In this document: piece after piece, positions 664 through 19,491 of the stretch
How the letters are laid out: each line of letters begins with the position of its first letter
Position numbering within the stretch: the stretch's first letter is position 1
The notes under the pieces: model-generated
What the model saw: only the letters and a program-made list of their open reading frames with translations
Databases searched by the model: none
What the model was told of the DNA's origin: nothing
Program-made: the position numbers and the translations under genes
DNA from: a virus
Length of the DNA: 22,910 nucleotides
Virus record (IMG/VR): IMGVR_UViG_3300021138_000188
Coordinates: 1-22,910 of that record
Reading direction: 5' to 3' (one strand)

Positions 664-1008
664 ATGGCCACGACGACGAACCTGACCTTCGACCTGGGCG
701 AGACGTGGATCATCAACCACACCGCGACCTCGGACGGCACGACCCCGCTGAACCTGACCGGCGCGACGGTGGCCCTCTACGTCAAGGGAGCCGCCGCCGC
801 CGTGCTCACCCCGGCCCAGTCCACGACCGTCATCACCAACGCCTCGCTCGGCCAGTCCACCATCAAGGTCAGCCCCGCCCAGCAGACGGCTGCAGGCATC
901 ACGGCAGGTCAGGTCGGCAACTACGTGCTCCGCATCACCCTGCAGGATGGCACCGTCACCGATCAGAACATCGGCAGCTTCACGATCAAGCAGACGGCGG
1001 CCAACTAG
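664..1008 (+). CDS. small phage structural protein, beta-sandwich/BppU-like
   Basis: This 114-residue protein starts at ATG 664, seven bases after the preceding stop, with AGGA just upstream. Its beginning (FDLGETWIINHTATSDGTTP) and the later YVLRITLQDGTV segment read as alternating beta strands. This resembles small tail or baseplate proteins of the BppU N-terminal or Ig-like type, in which a property such as LNLTGATVALYVKG describes a short beta domain. There are no membrane segments or cysteines. The reading frame continues upstream of 664, but that part is an Arg/Pro-rich shadow of the neighbouring gene. It is the last gene before a terminator and so likely the last gene of a late transcript. 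The family assignment is tentative. Confidence 0.65.
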   Translation: MATTTNLTFDLGETWIINHTATSDGTTPLNLTGATVALYVKGAAAAVLTPAQSTTVITNASLGQSTIKVSPAQQTAAGITAGQVGNYVLRITLQDGTVTDQNIGSFTIKQTAAN

Positions 1009-1042
1009 AGCCGCTTGCATAGGTTAGAAATCCGGTCACCAG

Positions 1043-1077
1043 CGCCCCTCGGCCCTCGCGGGTCTGGGGGCGTTTTT
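1043..1077 (+). terminator. rho-independent terminator after the late genes
   Basis: CGCCCC at 1043-1048 pairs with GGGGCG at 1067-1072 and is followed at once by TTTTT at 1073-1077. The hairpin lies 35 bases past the last late gene and would stop rightward late transcription before the attachment region. Confidence 0.75.
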
Positions 1078-1278
1078 CGCATTGGGGGTCTAAGGCTTTG
1101 AAATGTTTGGAGCGGCTTCTGAGTTTTTTCGCAGCGCATCGGTTTGAAATTGCAGGGAAACGGCCCAATTAGGAAACCGCTGCTCTATCCTGCTGAGCTA
1201 CCGGGCCGCGTTTGAAATCATTGGACATTCCGGCCACATCAGACCGCCGCCCCGGACCTTTTTCGCACCGTTTTCGCA
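1073..1278. repeat. direct repeats flanking the attP core (candidate integrase arm sites)
   Basis: TTTTCGCA occurs four times in the same orientation, at 1074-1081, 1126-1133, 1260-1267 and 1271-1278, two on each side of the tRNA fragment. A second repeat, TTTGAAAT, occurs at 1097-1104, 1143-1150 and 1211-1218. Its first and third copies extend to 13 matches in 15 bases (TTTGAAAT, two variable bases, TTGGA). Lambda-type tyrosine integrases use short arm-type repeats placed this way around the crossover core. The repeats are seen directly; binding by this integrase is an inference. Confidence 0.6.
1169..1207 (-). other. attP core: 5' half of tRNA-Arg(CCU)
   Basis: Read on the minus strand from 1207, this is a clean 5' half of a tRNA: a 7-base acceptor strand GGCCCGG, U8 and A9, D-arm GCTC/GAGC with loop AGCAGGATA, the anticodon stem strand GCGGT, and loop TTCCTAA with anticodon CCT. 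The next five bases (TTGGG) cannot pair with GCGGT, and no T-arm or 3' acceptor strand follows. It is therefore only half a tRNA, ending at the anticodon loop, a favoured crossover site for tyrosine integrases. Together with the adjacent integrase and phage genes on both sides, it is best read as attP. Most phages carry the 3' half of their target tRNA, so a 5' half is unusual. Confidence 0.7.
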
Positions 1279-1303
1279 AACTGGGTCGCGATCCGTTCTC
1301 CTT

Positions 1304-2362
1304 CTACCGGCTCCGCTTCATCCGTTCAACGATGGCGAGCGCAATGGTCTCCCCGTTCACGTAGCGCATGGCGATGCTTTCGACCTTCCGTTTCTCCCAT
1401 CCGAGGATGGTGGCCACGTCCTCAAGCGACAGCCCGGCGCGCACCAAGTTCGTGGCGGCCGTGCCCCGGAGGTCGTGAAAGCGCAACGCCTTGACGGATG
1501 GCCCCGCCTTCTGCTTCGCCCGCTGCATGGCGGTCTGCAAGCCCTCGTCCGTCCACGGACGGCCATGCGACGAGGTCAGCACCGTGAGGGCCCCGGTGTC
1601 GGCCGCAGTTGGCAGCCGGTCGATGATGGCGCGAAATTCTGTCGTGATCGGAATGATCACCGTCCGCCGCCGGCCGCTCTTTCCCGTTTGCCAGATGATC
1701 GCGTCATCCTTCACCGCCGACCAAGGCAAGGTCACCAGGTCGCCCAGCCGGAGGCCGCTGTGAGCGGCGAACAGAACGGCGTTCCGGGCGTGGTCGCTGC
1801 CCAGGTGCGGGAGGATCAACGCCAGATCCGCCTCGGTCCATACGAGGTCCGCCCTGTTCACCCGATACAGGCGCGGGAAGTCCTGCAGCGGGTTGACGGC
1901 AATCTGGCCCCGGTCGCGGGCCCATTGAAGGACCAGCGCCAGTGCCCCCATCCGGGCGTCGGCCGTCTTTGGGGTGGCCTTGTACTTGTCCCGCCAGTCG
2001 ATCAGGATCGCCCGGGCCTTGGGCTTCTCCAGCCATGCAAGGTCCATCTCGCCAAGGTCCCGACGCACGACATCCAGCGCCGCGCGATAATCGGCCCGGG
2101 TCCGCGGAGCCTTGGTCTGGTAGTGGGTGCTTTCCAGAAACTGAGTGATCAGCCCGGCCAAGAACCGGCCGTCAGGCTTCGCGCCGACGAGCTGCTCAAA
2201 TTGCGCGATGGCTGCCGGTGCAAGCCGCGCCACCTCACGATCAAGTGTGGTCTCGTTCGGCGCGGAGGCAGCGAGGATCCGAGGGCCACCCCGCCAAGCA
2301 TACCAATACTCATACGCGCGCTTCGCCGTGACCCGGCGGTGCCGGTCAAGTCCGGGCATCAT
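1304..2362 (-). CDS. int: tyrosine-family site-specific integrase
   Basis: This is a phage integrase that would recombine attP with a host tRNA-Arg gene. Residues 1-170 (numbered from ATG 2362) hold an N-terminal DNA-binding part and a core-binding SAM-like helical domain. The catalytic domain follows, with Arg205 in SGLRLGDL, Lys228 in TGKSGRR, His296 and Arg299 in HDLRGTAAT, Trp322 in the second His/Trp position and the nucleophile Tyr334 in AMRYVNGE. All expected catalytic positions are present. The frame stays open to 2413, but that extension overlaps the upstream xis gene. Starts at 2362 or 2359, preceded by AAGG, give a normal 351-352 residue protein beginning MMPGLDRHRR. It is the last gene of the left operon and reads toward the attachment region, about 100 bases away. 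Confidence 0.95.
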   Translation of the reverse strand: MMPGLDRHRRVTAKRAYEYWYAWRGGPRILAASAPNETTLDREVARLAPAAIAQFEQLVGAKPDGRFLAGLITQFLESTHYQTKAPRTRADYRAALDVVRRDLGEMDLAWLEKPKARAILIDWRDKYKATPKTADARMGALALVLQWARDRGQIAVNPLQDFPRLYRVNRADLVWTEADLALILPHLGSDHARNAVLFAAHSGLRLGDLVTLPWSAVKDDAIIWQTGKSGRRRTVIIPITTEFRAIIDRLPTAADTGALTVLTSSHGRPWTDEGLQTAMQRAKQKAGPSVKALRFHDLRGTAATNLVRAGLSLEDVATILGWEKRKVESIAMRYVNGETIALAIVERMKRSR

Positions 2363-2591
2363 CGAGGACGGCCTTAGCCCATTGGTCGAACGGGTCATCA
2401 GAAGTGATCGCATCTGTGGAGGACGGAACGACCAATCCCGCCGCCTTATTCAGCCAGGCGTCAATAGCGACCTGGTCCCACCGAAGGCGTCCGCCGACGT
2501 TTACCGGGGGAACCGGCAGGCGCTTCACGGCGGCCTTCGGGATCGCCAAATAGGCGGCGGCGGCGTCTAGGGTCATAAGGCGAGCCGTCAT
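2346..2591 (-). CDS. xis: excisionase-like DNA-binding protein
   Basis: This 81-residue protein has an N-terminal winged-helix segment of the excisionase/AlpA kind: MTLDAAAAYLAIPKAAVKRL is a helix-turn-helix, followed by a GGRLRWDQVAIDAWL wing and helix of the form seen in MerR-like excisionase domains. The start at 2591 is fixed by an ATGA overlap with the stop of the upstream gene; the longer open frame to 2645 has an Arg-rich shadow extension. It directly precedes and slightly overlaps int, the classic xis-int arrangement, so it probably bends attachment-site DNA to favour excision. It could instead be a small regulator of int. Confidence 0.75.
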   Translation of the reverse strand: MTARLMTLDAAAAYLAIPKAAVKRLPVPPVNVGGRLRWDQVAIDAWLNKAAGLVVPSSTDAITSDDPFDQWAKAVLDDART

Positions 2592-2797
2592 TCTTCCCCC
2601 AATGCGGCGAGGATGGCGGCTTTCATTTGATCGGCGTCGTCGCAAATGAAACTTGCCGCATAGGCCCGCCCCACCGCCTCGGGGCTGGTCATGTGGGCCT
2701 TGATCGCGGCGAGGATCGTGCCTTCGGCCTCGTAATGGCTGATGCCGCCCATGCCCAACTGGAGCAGCGTGTCGTTGATCTTTTCTTTAAGCGTCAT
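2588..2797 (-). CDS. small conserved phage protein with a YEAE motif
   Basis: This is a 69-residue helical protein of unknown function. The start at 2797 has a strong GGAGG nine bases upstream. Its N-terminal part (KINDTLLQLGMGGISHYEAE) closely matches the N-terminal part of the protein at 3501-3839 ([20 protein letters not shown]). The two are therefore paralogues or share a domain, although their C-terminal halves differ. There are no cysteines or membrane segments. It overlaps xis by ATGA and its upstream neighbour by 11 bases, which places it in the left operon. Confidence 0.7.
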   Translation of the reverse strand: MTLKEKINDTLLQLGMGGISHYEAEGTILAAIKAHMTSPEAVGRAYAASFICDDADQMKAAILAALGEE

Positions 2798-2993
2798 GGC
2801 TCTTATCCTCCGTCTGGTCGTAGGCGTGGGCCACCATCCCGGCCTTGGTCTTGCGGACGCTGACGATCAGGTAAGGCGGCTTCAGTTGGGCCACCATGTA
2901 GCCGCACATTGCGTGATCCTTTTCGAGCATGTCCCGAACGCACTCCGTCACCTCGGACAGGTGGCGCGGCTCGCAGTTGATTGTGAACCTCAT
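2787..2993 (-). CDS. hypothetical protein, 68 aa
   Basis: This small protein starts at 2993, within an ATGA overlap with the upstream stop, and is preceded by GGAGGGTGAGGG. It has an alternating strand-helix pattern ([20 protein letters not shown], then [10 protein letters not shown]) suggesting a compact alpha/beta fold, and a charged C-terminus. I recognise no family and no catalytic motif. Its position in an uninterrupted overlapping operon supports it as a real gene. Confidence 0.65.
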
Positions 2994-3511
2994 CCCTCAC
3001 CCTCCGCAGCGTGGAAGCGGGCTAGGGCGGCGGCTGCTCTGCGCAATTCACCTATCGACACGTCGGTCGGCACAACCATCGTGTCGCGCACGTTCGGGTT
3101 CGACAGGCAAATGTTCTGCGGCAGCAATTCTCCAACAGCTTTCGCCAGTTCCCGCGCGATCCCCTCCCGTTCAGCAAGCTGGGCCAAGGCGCACTCGTAA
3201 TGCCGTGGACCCCATGTGTGGCACCCCGGCCCGTGGGTTCCGATCCGACCGGCGCGGTGCTGTTCGTATTTCAGATTACGTTCGGCCTCAGCAAGCTGGG
3301 CGCGATCCATGGCGTTCGATTGCAACAGTGCCGCAATGGTCTGGTTCTGCGCGTCGATCCGCTTGTCTCTCTCAGCAAGCTGGGCAGTCAGGCGGTCTAC
3401 CTCGGCAAATAGGGTCTCAATGTCGGCCAGCACTTGCGGAATTTGCATACCGGGTTGCCAGCGCCGGTAAATCTGGTCGCGCCATTCCTTTCGCGTTCGA
3501 TTAAGTTTCAT
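2990..3511 (-). CDS. coiled-coil protein with a [13 protein letters not shown] motif
   Basis: The start at 3511 is set by a perfect GGAGG five bases upstream; an ATG at 3523 lacks this. The 173-residue protein opens with a basic segment, then a long heptad-like region around residues 25-80 ([20 protein letters not shown]) predicted to form a coiled coil. A short Cys/His segment follows, [17 protein letters not shown], and then a helical C-terminus. The Cys-His-x-Trp-Gly-Pro-x-His-Tyr-x-Cys spacing could bind a metal or form a conserved ligand site, but I do not know its function. It overlaps both neighbours in the left operon. Confidence 0.65.
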
Positions 3512-8354: not shown

Positions 8355-8930
8355 ATGGCTTTGATGAACTGCCCGGAGTGCGGGCGCGAGATCAGCACGA
8401 CCGCCAAGGCGTGCGTTGGGTGCGGGGCGCCGGTCAGACCGCCGAAGAAGAAGTCGAATGGGCTGGTTTGGAAGTCGATGGCCGTGCTGATCGGGATCGG
8501 AATGGTCGGATCGGCCATATCGCTCAATGCGACCCAGCACGCTGAACAGGAACGGATCGCCAAGCTCACCCCGGCGCAGCGCCAAGCCGAGGTCGATAAG
8601 GCCAAGGCGGATGCGGACAAAGCCAAGGCGAACGAGGCGGTCTTTCAAACGGAAGCCGGGCGCGCTCGGGTTGCCGTCGCGACCCTTCGGGATGCGTCCA
8701 AGAACCCGGACAGCTTCAAGGTCAAGTCGGCAATCGCCTACCCGGACGGGGCGGCCTGCATCGAATACATGGCCACGAACAGCTTCAATGCGACACTAAA
8801 AGGCAGCGCAGTGTTGACCCCGAAGGGTGCCCTGCTCGTCGAAGAGCACAACGGAAACCGCTTCGTCGGTGCCTGGAACAAGTACTGCACTCGAACCGGC
8901 CAGGACGTGACTATCGCCGTCGGAGGCTAA
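8355..8930 (+). CDS. zinc-ribbon membrane protein (lysogenic-conversion candidate)
   Basis: This 191-residue protein starts at ATG 8355 with AGGGG upstream. An N-terminal zinc ribbon has Cys6, Cys9, Cys20 and Cys23 (CPEC and CVGC). A basic linker and a transmembrane helix at about residues 38-57 (VWKSMAVLIGIGMVGSAISL) follow. Next comes a charged helical stretch with repeated AEVDKAKADADKAKANEA, likely a coiled coil, and then a small globular C-terminal domain with three further Cys-containing strands. The gene lies alone between the left operon and the repressor, convergent with the repressor by a four-base overlap. That is where phages often keep genes expressed in the lysogen. A role in superinfection exclusion or host modification is inferred from position only. 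Confidence 0.8.
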   Translation: MALMNCPECGREISTTAKACVGCGAPVRPPKKKSNGLVWKSMAVLIGIGMVGSAISLNATQHAEQERIAKLTPAQRQAEVDKAKADADKAKANEAVFQTEAGRARVAVATLRDASKNPDSFKVKSAIAYPDGAACIEYMATNSFNATLKGSAVLTPKGALLVEEHNGNRFVGAWNKYCTRTGQDVTIAVGG

Positions 8931-9559
8931 AGCCGCCGGGCGAACCAGACCGGGCGCCCGATGATCTGGACCTCTTCAGGCGTCAACACTTCTTCGGGGT
9001 ATTCGGCATTGCGGGACGAGATCCGCAATAGCGTCCGGCGTTCCACCCAGGACACGTCCTTGATCGCGTATCCGTCGCTAAAATGCAAAGCGAATGGACC
9101 AGGCTGCGTCGGGCTCTTGTCGCGCGTGTCGATGAGCAGCTGGTCGCCGTGAAGGAAAAGCGGCTCCATGCTGGGCCCCCTGACATTGACCAGGAGCAGG
9201 TCGGCCGGCCGGGCGCGCAGCTCGTCCTCGACGAGCCGTCGAGAGACCAGAGCGACCTCGGGGTCGCCGTCGCCGGTTCCGCGACCACCCATGCCGGCGA
9301 AGGTCGGAAGCACCTCGACGGAGACGTAGGCTTGAGCCGGATCGACGACCGGGAAGTCCGGCATTGTCGAAAGGTTGCCCGGGTCGCCTCCGTGCTGCCG
9401 GATCAATTCAAGGAGCGGTTCGACCTCGCTGAATTGGACGGCGCGCTGGCCGTTCATCATCTTTGTCGCGGCCGTGCGCTCGCGGCCAATCGCTGCGGCG
9501 ATCTCCTCATGGCGGATGCCAAGGCGTCGGAGTGTTTCAACTATCTGGTTCGGGCCCAT
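8927..9559 (-). CDS. LexA/CI-type S24 phage repressor
   Basis: This 210-residue repressor has an N-terminal helix-turn-helix (IVETLRRLGIRHEEIAAAIG, residues 6-25, plus the following recognition region) and a C-terminal S24/LexA peptidase domain. The catalytic pair is Ser130 in NVRGPSMEP and Lys167 in GYAIKDV; their 37-residue spacing is the same as in LexA. An Ala88-Gly89 bond lies in the hinge and could be the self-cleavage site, so SOS-triggered induction is likely. ATG 9559 is chosen because the upstream extension crosses the operators and is Arg-rich. It would keep the leftward and rightward early promoters off by binding the GTGCG/CGCAC operators. No strong ribosome site is visible, consistent with a leaderless or low-level transcript. 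Confidence 0.9.
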   Translation of the reverse strand: MGPNQIVETLRRLGIRHEEIAAAIGRERTAATKMMNGQRAVQFSEVEPLLELIRQHGGDPGNLSTMPDFPVVDPAQAYVSVEVLPTFAGMGGRGTGDGDPEVALVSRRLVEDELRARPADLLLVNVRGPSMEPLFLHGDQLLIDTRDKSPTQPGPFALHFSDGYAIKDVSWVERRTLLRISSRNAEYPEEVLTPEEVQIIGRPVWFARRL

Positions 9560-16294: not shown

Positions 16295-17789
16295 CCCCGT
16301 CAAGACACCGCTGCCGCCGGGGCTTGTCGCCCGTCTGGTGTCTGGTGTCCGGTATGTGGTGACAGGCGCATCCGACGCCTGGATGGGACCGAACCAACCG
16401 CTGCCGCCGACGGCCGACAGCCCTTCGGACGAAACCCGAGGCCGTGCCTTCGACTATCGTGTCGGGATCAACCTCGACACGGTGCCGAAGACGCCCGAGG
16501 CGGGGATTTCCTACGACCTCTTGCGTGGCCTCGCTGACGGCTATGACCTGGTCCGGCTCTGCATCGAGACCCGGAAGGACCAGATCAGCGCCCAAGAATG
16601 GCAGTTCAAGATCAAGGGCGACGACAAGGCGACCGACCCGCGCCTCGATGACCTGATGGCCTTCTTCCAGTCCCCCGACCGGATGAACTCCTTCGACATC
16701 TGGTGCCGTCTGCTGCTCGAGGAGATGCTCGTCATCGACGCGGCGACGGTCTATCCGCGCATGACGCGCGGAGGGCAACCGTTCGCGTTCGAGCCTCTCG
16801 ACGGCTCGACGATCAAGCGGGTGATAGACGGCTATGGCCGCACACCCATGCCGCCGGAACCGGCCTATCAGCAGATCCTGAAAGGTCTGCCGGCCGTGGA
16901 CTACACGCTCGACGAGCTGATCTACCGACCGCGCAATCCGCGCGTCTACAAGCTCTATGGCTTCTCGCCGGTCGAGCAGATCGTGACGACGGTCAACATC
17001 GCGCTTCGTCGCCAGATCACCCAGCTCGACTACTACACCAACGGCAACGTCCCAAACGCCCTGGTGGCGGCCCCCGAGGCCTGGACGCCCGACATGATCT
17101 CCCAGTTTCAGGACTGGTGGGACAGCATCACGACGCAGGAGACCAAGCAGCGGGCGCGCTTCATTCCCGGCGGAATGTCGTTCATCGACACCAAGCAGGC
17201 GGCAATGGGGCCCAGCGACCAGGTCGTGAACGAATGGCTGGCCCGGGTGGTCTGCTTCGCCTTCAACATCAGCCCGACGCAGCTCGTGTCGATGAACAAC
17301 CGGGCGACCTCAGACAGCCAGAAGGAACAGGCCGAGGACGAAGGCCTCAAGCCGACGAAGCGCTGGCTGAAGCAGCTCATCGACGAGATCGTGGTCCGCT
17401 ATTTCGGCCACACCGACATCGAGTTCCAGTGGGTGACCGAGAAGGAGCTGGACGGCCTGAAGGCCGCTCAGATCAACCAGATCTACCTGCAGGAGGGCGT
17501 TCTCACGCCGGACGAGGTCCGCACCGATCTCGGCCTCGACCCGCTCACGCCGGAACAGAAAGACGACCTGCTGGCTGCAAAGCCGCAGCCGCTTCCCCCT
17601 CCGACGCCCGCACCGCAACCGACCGCTCCGAACGGAGCATCGCCGGGCGAGAAGGAAAAGTCCGAGACGATCCACATCCACATGCCGGAAATCAAGACCG
17701 GCGACACCCTGGTGGAAGTCGGCTCGACGGTGGTGAAGTTCGAAAATGCAGACGGCTCGGTGCGCGAACTGCGCGATGACCGAGCGTAA
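16287..17789 (+). CDS. portal protein (HK97-type)
   Basis: This 500-residue protein forms the dodecameric head vertex through which DNA enters. The sequence has typical portal blocks: DGYDLVRLCIETRKDQISAQ early, DIWCRLLLEEMLVIDAATVY, then YRPRNPRVYKLYGFSPVEQI, and later NEWLARVVCFAFNISPTQLV with QAEDEGLKPTKRWL. The C-terminus is Pro-rich and probably flexible, ending in HIHMPEIKTGDTLVEVGS, which may extend into the head interior. It overlaps the terminase by eight bases and the head morphogenesis gene by 14 bases, the standard order of head genes. Confidence 0.95.
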   Translation: MANPVKTPLPPGLVARLVSGVRYVVTGASDAWMGPNQPLPPTADSPSDETRGRAFDYRVGINLDTVPKTPEAGISYDLLRGLADGYDLVRLCIETRKDQISAQEWQFKIKGDDKATDPRLDDLMAFFQSPDRMNSFDIWCRLLLEEMLVIDAATVYPRMTRGGQPFAFEPLDGSTIKRVIDGYGRTPMPPEPAYQQILKGLPAVDYTLDELIYRPRNPRVYKLYGFSPVEQIVTTVNIALRRQITQLDYYTNGNVPNALVAAPEAWTPDMISQFQDWWDSITTQETKQRARFIPGGMSFIDTKQAAMGPSDQVVNEWLARVVCFAFNISPTQLVSMNNRATSDSQKEQAEDEGLKPTKRWLKQLIDEIVVRYFGHTDIEFQWVTEKELDGLKAAQINQIYLQEGVLTPDEVRTDLGLDPLTPEQKDDLLAAKPQPLPPPTPAPQPTAPNGASPGEKEKSETIHIHMPEIKTGDTLVEVGSTVVKFENADGSVRELRDDRA

Positions 17790-19491
17790 GCCCTATCCGC
17801 CTCAGACAGAGGACGGTTACCACACTGCTCGTCCCTTCATCGTCCGCAACCGCATCGGCATGAAGCGGGCCGTGCGCAGCTTCTTCGCTCGCCAGATCAA
17901 GCCGGTGACGGACAGCCTCGGGCGCGCTCTGGGACTGGCCAAGGCAGACGGATCGGACCCGAAGGAACGGGCGCGCCAGGCCGTCGACCAGGTCGAAATC
18001 GACTGGGCCCCCCTCGCTGACCAGGTCGAACCGTTTCTGGTCTCGGTCGCCGTCTCGGGCGCATCCGCTGGGCTGAAAAGCCTCGACATCCAGTTCGCCG
18101 ACAACATGTGGAACGGCGTCGGGACGGACGCGACGGAATGGGCCGCGAACCGCGCCGCCGAGCTGGTCGGTATGCGACTGGTCGATGGCAAGTGGGTGCC
18201 GAACCCGAATGCGAAATGGCAGATCGGAGACACGACCCGCGACATGGTCCGCTCACTAGTGACCGACGCCATTGAGCAGGGCGACAGTTCAGACAACCTC
18301 GCTGACCGCCTCGCGGCCATTCAGAACAAGCTGAAGAACGGCTTCGTCTTCAGCGATGAGCGCGCCGACATGATCGCGCGTACCGAGATCGCCCGGGCAG
18401 ACGTTCAAGGTGCTCTGATCGGCTGGCAGAAGTCCGGCGTGGTGATCGGCAAGCGGTGGCTCGCCGGAGGGCCCCGCGTCTGTCCGGTCTGCCTTGCACA
18501 TGAAGCCGAGGGCCCGAAAAAGCTCGACTACACCTGGGGCGACGGCGTGACCGCGCCTCCCGACCATCCGCACTGCCTACCGGGAAACAGCCGCATACTG
18601 GCCACGGGAATTTCTGCCACTAGTGAGCGCTGGTATGATGGTGATCTCATCATCGTCAACACTTCCAGCGGCAAGCGTCTCGCCTGCACCCCTAATCACC
18701 CGGTACTCACGCCGGATGGCTGGGTCTCGGCGCGCTTGCTCAATGAAGGAGGCCACGTAGTCGGCTGTCGCGTCGGTCAATGGGAACCTGGCCTCAGTCT
18801 TCACAACGAGGATGTGCCAGCCTGCATCGAGGATGTGGCGAAAGCGTTCAGCCGTTCGGAGGATGTGGCGTCCCGACCAATGCCAACCGCCCCCGAACAC
18901 TTCCACGGCGACGGGGAAGGCTCCCAGATCGCAATTATACGGGCCGATGGCTTCCTGCGAAATGGTCCCGATGCCTCGTTCGGCCAGCCTCCGCTGGAGT
19001 TCCAGTTCAATGGCGGAAATGTGCAGCTTTCGCGCCATCACCGTCCTAGCTCGCTTGGTCTTAGCCTCCAGGCTGTCCTTGCTTCCGCGCTTGGCCGTGT
19101 AGGCGGCCACAGCCTGCTTTGCCCGAATGTCTGGGGGGGCGGCCGCCCACCTTACAGCTTGAGCAGCCTTGAGGTTTCGACGCTCGACGCCGCGCTCATT
19201 GAGAACGCGCGTGATGACGACACGCGAAACGCCGAATTTCTGCGCGACGGCAAACTCGCTCATGCCGCCGACATAATCGGCCACGGCACCATCCTCATCA
19301 AAGATGATGCGCCGCTTCAACTGAACCCGTTTTTTCTCGACCGTATTGTTTCTGTCCACAACGAACCCTTCTCTGGAAAAGTCTACAATCTGCAGACGGA
19401 CGTGGGCTTTTATATCGCAGAGGGCGTTGTGACACACAACTGTTTCTGCTGCCTGGTCGCAGTTCTCGAAGGGGAACCCGTGAATGAATAA
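17776..19491 (+). CDS. phage head morphogenesis protein (SPP1 gp7/Mu gpF-like) interrupted by an intein
   Basis: The precursor is 571 residues, starting at ATG 17776. Residues 1-266 and 556-571 form the extein, a 282-residue minor head protein after splicing. ADMIARTEIARADVQGALIG, then VCPVCLAHEAEG and PPDHPHC joined to FCC, is the gp7-family C-terminal motif with a likely metal site. Residues 267-555 are an intein inserted exactly between His266 and Cys556 in the conserved HPxC motif. Without splicing the motif would be destroyed, so splicing is presumably needed for head assembly. The gene overlaps the portal by 14 bases and the protease gene by eight bases. Confidence 0.92.
   Translation: MTERKPYPPQTEDGYHTARPFIVRNRIGMKRAVRSFFARQIKPVTDSLGRALGLAKADGSDPKERARQAVDQVEIDWAPLADQVEPFLVSVAVSGASAGLKSLDIQFADNMWNGVGTDATEWAANRAAELVGMRLVDGKWVPNPNAKWQIGDTTRDMVRSLVTDAIEQGDSSDNLADRLAAIQNKLKNGFVFSDERADMIARTEIARADVQGALIGWQKSGVVIGKRWLAGGPRVCPVCLAHEAEGPKKLDYTWGDGVTAPPDHPHCLPGNSRILATGISATSERWYDGDLIIVNTSSGKRLACTPNHPVLTPDGWVSARLLNEGGHVVGCRVGQWEPGLSLHNEDVPACIEDVAKAFSRSEDVASRPMPTAPEHFHGDGEGSQIAIIRADGFLRNGPDASFGQPPLEFQFNGGNVQLSRHHRPSSLGLSLQAVLASALGRVGGHSLLCPNVWGGGRPPYSLSSLEVSTLDAALIENARDDDTRNAEFLRDGKLAHAADIIGHGTILIKDDAPLQLNPFFLDRIVSVHNEPFSGKVYNLQTDVGFYIAEGVVTHNCFCCLVAVLEGEPVNE
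18574..19440 (+). mobile_element. intein in the head morphogenesis gene
   Basis: This 289-residue Hint-type element begins with Cys1 (CLPGNSRILATG, block A) and carries the block B motif CTPNHPVLTPDGW with Thr39 and His42. It ends with block F (FSGKVYNLQTDVGFYIAEG) and block G VVTHN, followed by Cys+1. All splicing residues are present: Cys1, Thr and His of block B, the penultimate His, the terminal Asn and Cys+1. It should therefore splice. The middle, roughly residues 60-260, has no LAGLIDADG or HNH motif in the sense frame. A homing-nuclease-like gene runs on the opposite strand across it. Confidence 0.92.
18577..19359 (-). CDS. antisense homing endonuclease nested in the intein (HTH plus Vsr/EDxHD-like)
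   Basis: This 260-residue protein is read from GTG 19359, which has AGAAGG about seven bases upstream; the frame stays open to 19575, so the start is not certain. Residues 18-60 form a helix-turn-helix (DYVGGMSEFAVAQKFGVSRV, then VITRVLNERGV). A basic linker follows. Residues 113-190 look like a Vsr/PD-(D/E)XK-type nuclease: Glu118, IGPYNCDLG (Asp144), VAVEVFGGGWHW (Glu153, His160), His165, then an ERFRHILDAGWHILVV strand-helix ending. That residue set fits the EDxHD homing endonucleases, a group first linked to inteins. The C-terminal part is antisense to intein block B. The gene is entirely inside the intein, and its TAG stop is the complement of intein codon 2 (CTA). Activity is inferred, not shown. 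Confidence 0.8.
   Translation of the reverse strand: MDRNNTVEKKRVQLKRRIIFDEDGAVADYVGGMSEFAVAQKFGVSRVVITRVLNERGVERRNLKAAQAVRWAAAPPDIRAKQAVAAYTAKRGSKDSLEAKTKRARTVMARKLHISAIELELQRRLAERGIGTISQEAIGPYNCDLGAFPVAVEVFGGGWHWSGRHILRTAERFRHILDAGWHILVVKTEARFPLTDATADYVASFIEQARRDPAIRREYRVIRGAGETLAAGSVDDDEITIIPALTSGRNSRGQYAAVSR

Follow-up and report, generated by a model that had tools for sequence, protein, structure and literature searches.

The locus

The window, by which we mean the whole 22.9-kb stretch of phage DNA analysed, contains a tyrosine integrase gene (int) and, 96 nt downstream of it and in the same sense, one half of a tRNA gene surrounded by short repeats. The features on which the argument rests are as follows.

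664–1008, plus strand: phage protein with no assigned function (phrog_1084, E=1.9e-11)
1041–1074, plus strand: intrinsic terminator ending the late gene operon (-26.2 kcal/mol, z -3.8, then a T run)
1074–1133, minus strand: arm-type repeats CTGCGAAAAA and ATGCGAAAAA, the pair away from int (with TGCGAAAA at 1126–1133 and 1074–1081)
1097–1218, minus strand: three copies of ATTTCAAA (1211–1218, 1143–1150 and 1097–1104), possible accessory binding sites
1169–1207, minus strand: 5′ half of tRNA-Arg(CCU), the attP/attB identity block, identical over 39 nt to intact Caulobacterales tRNA-Arg(CCT) genes
1169–1175, minus strand: anticodon loop TTCCTAA, the likely 7-bp overlap for strand exchange
1208–1303, minus strand: 96-nt leader from the int stop to tRNA G1, expected upstream of the rebuilt gene after integration
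1260–1278, minus strand: arm-type repeats TTGCGAAAAC and GTGCGAAAAA, the int-side pair (with TGCGAAAA at 1271–1278 and 1260–1267)
1304–2413, minus strand: tyrosine integrase, transcribed towards the tRNA half (PF00589, E=7e-19; phrog_1)
2346–2591, minus strand: small HTH_17-like protein overlapping int, likely an excisionase or directionality factor (PF12728, weak, below cut-off)

The tRNA half (minus strand, 1207–1169) extends from G1 to A38, reads GGCCCGGTAGCTCAGCAGGATAGAGCAGCGGTTTCCTAA, and comprises the acceptor strand, the D arm, the 5′ strand of the anticodon stem, and the entire anticodon loop, CCT included; the phage minus strand then continues as TTGGGCC, with which the 3′ anticodon stem cannot form. 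A preliminary description of this DNA had recognized a clean tRNA up to loop position 38, with failed pairing thereafter, and had assigned it to 1164–1210. The half is real and its break is correctly placed, identity to hosts stopping at A38, but the span was too generous: 1208–1210 is the CGC of the leader and five bases at the other end lie past the break. Neither ARAGORN nor Rfam calls a complete tRNA in the 22.9-kb window, as expected for a gene of which only half is present. The loop TTCCTAA is the likely strand-exchange overlap because host identity ends exactly there and because anticodon-loop overlaps are usual in tRNA-gene integrases of the anticodon-loop class (PMC8371274).

The repeats concentrate at this site. 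All four copies of TGCGAAAA in the window (0.5 expected) lie around attP in one direction and are predicted arm-type repeats, placed two and two about the core; ATTTCAAA occurs three times at attP (0.24 expected) and nowhere else in the window. The site is not inside int but 96 nt past its stop codon. The same layout of attP and int recurs in a second contig, IMGVR_UViG_3300009502_002041 (L002/L003), in which the integrase is 95% identical, the tRNA half is 100% conserved against 88% identity in the surrounding 630 bp, and the arm-type repeats on the side away from int are kept. Direct repeats comparable to attP arms can also be seen by eye around the cores of relatives (e.g. TGTAAA in L021 and L022). 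These comparisons support classification of the segment as a tyrosine-integrase attP of the tRNA-gene anticodon-loop class in the 5′-fragment configuration.

The catalytic residues R222, K245, H313, R316, and Y351 of the integrase are invariant (alignment A1), and a homologue of the small HTH_17-like protein adjoins int in relatives; a single-sequence integrase scan of genome contigs found no relatives. On the opposite side, DNA homologous to 664–1008 occupies the same place in L003. Given the phrog_1084 gene, the late-operon terminator, and the int side, both flanks of attP are phage DNA, and the possibility raised earlier that the left flank (1–1008) belongs to the host is contradicted by these features and by the shared L003 layout.

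Elsewhere in the window, an S24 peptidase repressor (CI/LexA-like; 8927–9532, minus strand) supports a temperate lifestyle. A Mu F-like minor head gene (17746–19491, plus strand) is apparently interrupted by an intein (PF14890 at residues 289–565, ending VVTHN|C, with a TIGR01445 N-terminal region), the scores for PF14890, PF04233, and TIGR01445 all being under the curated cut-offs. An open frame truncated by the start of the contig (3–656, plus strand), repetitive and rich in Ala, Ser, and Gly, has no family match and is possibly a tail or fibre protein. Compared with the phage DNA collection, this phage shows only patches of 68–73% identity, in the HNH and RecT-like genes.

The host and its attachment site

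The exact 39-mer is present in 11 of 84,980 species genomes; all 11 are Caulobacterales, and in each of them it lies in an intact tRNA-Arg(CCT) gene. The preliminary description had suggested a search for host tRNA-Arg(CCU) genes identical up to the anticodon loop, and these 11 genomes supply them; an attB identity block elsewhere in the host was looked for and not found. Because the exact 39-mer is confined to Caulobacterales and always sits in an intact tRNA-Arg(CCT), sequence comparison excludes a chance origin of the match. It also upholds the view that attP carries the 5′ rather than the 3′ half, the block from G1 to A38 being the part that matches the host gene. The bases following A38 in 37 Caulobacterales tRNA-Arg(CCT) genes, some of which carry a few mismatches in the 5′ half, are ACCGG, AGCGA, or ACCGA, and in none of them TTGGG.

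Among 398 sampled Caulobacterales genomes, 69 match above the cut-off used, with one match each, and the alignments end at A38 or one base later in all but five, which are imperfect (89–91%) and extend to the end of the query. As there is one match per genome, at tRNA-Arg(CCT), no displaced half was found in the 398 genomes, and no lysogen of this phage at that gene was seen among them. The capsid gene is nearest to that of a phage of Brevundimonas, which likewise belongs to Caulobacterales. Together, the matches support the anticodon loop of Caulobacterales tRNA-Arg(CCT) as the host attB. Since host 3′ halves differ (ACCG versus AGCG), the GCGGT 5′ stem of the phage would pair properly only in ACCG-type hosts. 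An otherwise anonymous metagenomic phage has thereby acquired a host order and an attB.

Relatives and the integrated state

Eight relatives, seven of them viral contigs and one a genome, have the same 5′-half geometry, with half classes here and below having been assigned by motif search and reading rather than by a blind classifier:

5′ half of Thr-UGU: L021, L022, L024, L025, L101
5′ half of Lys-CUU: L059
5′ half of Lys-UUU: L075, L033

Other relatives carry 3′ halves, usually antisense to int, of Gln (L023, L026, L027, L100, L103) or of Pro, Gly, and Trp tRNAs. In a 43-row integrase tree the 5′/3′ label changes at least three times, even on well-supported branches; the fully supported 13-row clade around this integrase contains both kinds, and the exact position of this phage next to the 3′ group is weakly supported (80/33). 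We also considered whether the tRNA piece is always found on the side of the core facing int, but L102, L104, L079, and L082 are exceptions, and we propose no such rule. In L104 (G163:C16), an apparent displaced host 5′ half of tRNA-Gly(UCC) adjoins int, antisense to it, which looks like 5′-type integration with int at the other prophage end. At the L100 (G367:C1) junction, the int reading frame continues into tRNA-Gln, which lies antisense, and the C-terminus of the integrase may therefore change upon integration.

Two relatives are found in the integrated state. In the Caulobacterales genome G332, whose integrase is 52% identical to that of this phage, a complete tRNA-Thr(UGU) begins at 92,590 of contig 13, directly downstream of int and in the same sense, and an identical 5′ half, preceded by a different leader and followed by non-tRNA sequence, lies at 132,388. 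A complete tRNA-Lys(UUU) likewise adjoins int in G012 (IMGVR_UViG_3300033052_000013), starting at 227; the 5′ half that was displaced lies at 45,564. The displaced host half is thus 40–45 kb from the rebuilt tRNA in both. The anticipated joining of a phage 5′ half to a host 3′ half is visible in these two relatives, with phage DNA upstream of the product.

Decoding of ACA requires a tRNA with a UGU anticodon, and a search of G332, a genome that may be incomplete, found no second tRNA-Thr(UGU), the next-best matches being Trp and Val tRNAs. If this copy is the only one, phage DNA must support its transcription, as it presumably does. AGG can often be read by tRNA-Arg(UCU), so tRNA-Arg(CCU), whose gene our phage would target, may not be essential.

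Proposed integration and transcription of the rebuilt gene

We propose that the integrase of this temperate Caulobacterales phage recombines within the anticodon loop of the host tRNA-Arg(CCU) gene. The phage 5′ half, on the int side of the core, would join the host 3′ half to give an intact tRNA directly downstream of int, and the host promoter and host 5′ half would end up at the prophage end away from int. The phage would then integrate as its relatives have done, with cuts predicted at the anticodon loop. Read-through from the int operon would be the most likely source of the rebuilt tRNA, whose transcript RNase P would trim. We hold this account as a whole—attP of a Caulobacterales phage, 5′-half integration at tRNA-Arg(CCU), and read-through as the most likely source of transcript—with high confidence; the choice of read-through over a local phage promoter, taken separately, is made with only a modest leaning.

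That leaning is based on what the promoter and terminator scans returned. A sigma-70 scan of 900–3000 found no promoter, and no minus-strand terminator was found between int and the tRNA. Sigma-70 and Caulobacter sigma-73-type scans of the leader (1208–1303) gave nothing above shuffled sequences. In a small sample, the Caulobacter -10 motif shows enrichment (p 0.007) in the upstream regions of 37 host tRNA-Arg genes but none upstream of ten phage leaders. This combination of no promoter, no terminator, and no -10 enrichment weakly favours read-through with RNase P trimming, in line with the archaeal element pTN3, discussed below. Against it, transcription of the int operon may cease in lysogeny, which would speak for a local promoter of a kind beyond the scans' recognition.

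The most serious competitor shares attP and 5′-half integration and departs only at the read-through step: the rebuilt gene would be driven from the 96-nt leader by a phage promoter of its own, which may have been captured together with the tRNA half from an ancestral host. An always-on host gene would be safer with a promoter of its own, and CAATGATTTCA is common to the phage leader (1211–1222) and the host L012 leader at nearly the same distance from G1; the two leaders share 11–12 bases, and 11 nt were reached in 5 of 1000 shuffles. The match suggests that the phage captured host leader DNA with the tRNA half, and a captured host promoter element in the leader is possible. The absence of a sigma-70 site and of -10 enrichment in the phage leaders nevertheless counts against such a promoter, as do the arm repeats that occupy much of the leader, and we regard it as rather unlikely, although it deserves to be taken seriously.

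We give each of the remaining explanations very little credence. On one of them, the locus is a degraded prophage end, in which the left flank comes from the host and the half is what remains of a host 5′ half; in its favour, the record is a linear fragment, and the distal ends of prophages can carry displaced 5′ halves. However, the left flank holds a phage protein family and a phage-style operon end, arm repeats flank both sides of the core, L003 has the same layout, and in the relatives found as lysogens the host half was displaced to the end away from int, not beside it. Equally improbable is tRNA-dependent lysogeny, known in mycobacteriophages, in which the phage likewise enters a tRNA gene and phage DNA ensures the supply of tRNA, but in which the gene is destroyed rather than rebuilt and a whole phage tRNA encoded elsewhere substitutes for it (PMC10865867). 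There attP and attB share only about 10 bp (PMC10865867), as against the 39 bp that here restore the whole 5′ half, and the relatives rebuild intact tRNA genes; the window holds no tRNA gene, but it is part of the genome, and one could sit outside it. Fragments of tRNA genes do occur as scraps in phage genomes, so the half might be a fossil or decoy with no role in integration, which is just as hard to credit considering its position among arm repeats, its full conservation in L003 compared with 88% in the surrounding DNA, and the similar placement of other tRNA halves in relatives.

Relation to known systems

In the textbook arrangement, phages carry the 3′ half of the target gene, so that the host promoter remains with the rebuilt tRNA. 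Members of the same integrase family follow it: Paracoccus phage Psul1 (tRNA-Trp) and the Gln-tRNA relatives L023, L026, L100, and L103 have attP beside int, as here, but with a 3′ half antisense to int, and the host promoter stays on the rebuilt gene. The preliminary description was right that 3′ halves are the usual case, yet the 5′ case had already been documented (PMC4383910, PMC8371274, PMC11476347), and the arrangement is known but uncommon. The Islander survey counts 3,919 islands, of which 3,760 have a 3′ fragment and 159 a 5′ fragment, and names the anticodon-loop class as one of two target classes; its 5′-tDNA islands resemble this phage in having a tyrosine integrase, a tRNA-gene target, and an element that restores the 5′ part of the tRNA, and the survey passages considered here treat neither promoters nor this integrase clade (PMC4383910). 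In Sinorhizobium meliloti, nine of 88 tRNA-targeted prophages and islands match the tRNA 5′ end and keep the gene intact; these are different elements from our phage, and the word promoter is absent from the text (PMC11476347).

The closest parallel for transcription comes from archaeal pTN3-type elements, in which identity also covers the 5′ half (41 bp in pTN3) and the integrase promoter is said to drive the rebuilt tRNA, which has been cut off from its original promoter (PMC5495485, PMC8371274). Read-through with RNase P trimming would be in line with that statement (PMC8371274). The architecture differs, because attP of pTN3-type elements lies within int and integration splits the gene, whereas here int stays whole and attP is downstream (PMC5495485, PMC8371274).

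Implications

The additions made here are the identification of the host and of attB, the recognition that 5′ halves are frequent in one integrase clade, whose members have switched between them and 3′ halves, and a pair of lysogens suited to transcription tests. In contrast to the textbook arrangement, 5′ halves are common in this bacterial clade, and the two natural lysogens each hold a tRNA under phage DNA, one of them at the only tRNA-Thr(UGU) gene found. A rarely tested question, namely how a host tRNA gene whose promoter has given way to a prophage is transcribed, and whether the host is thereby tied to the prophage, becomes measurable. We suggest tentatively, rating it somewhat below an even chance, that the clade has switched repeatedly between 3′ and 5′ attachment and that its 5′-half lysogens express a sole host tRNA only by read-through of the int operon. 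If so, the int end of the prophage would be indispensable and protected from decay, and transcription of int would be obligatory in lysogeny.
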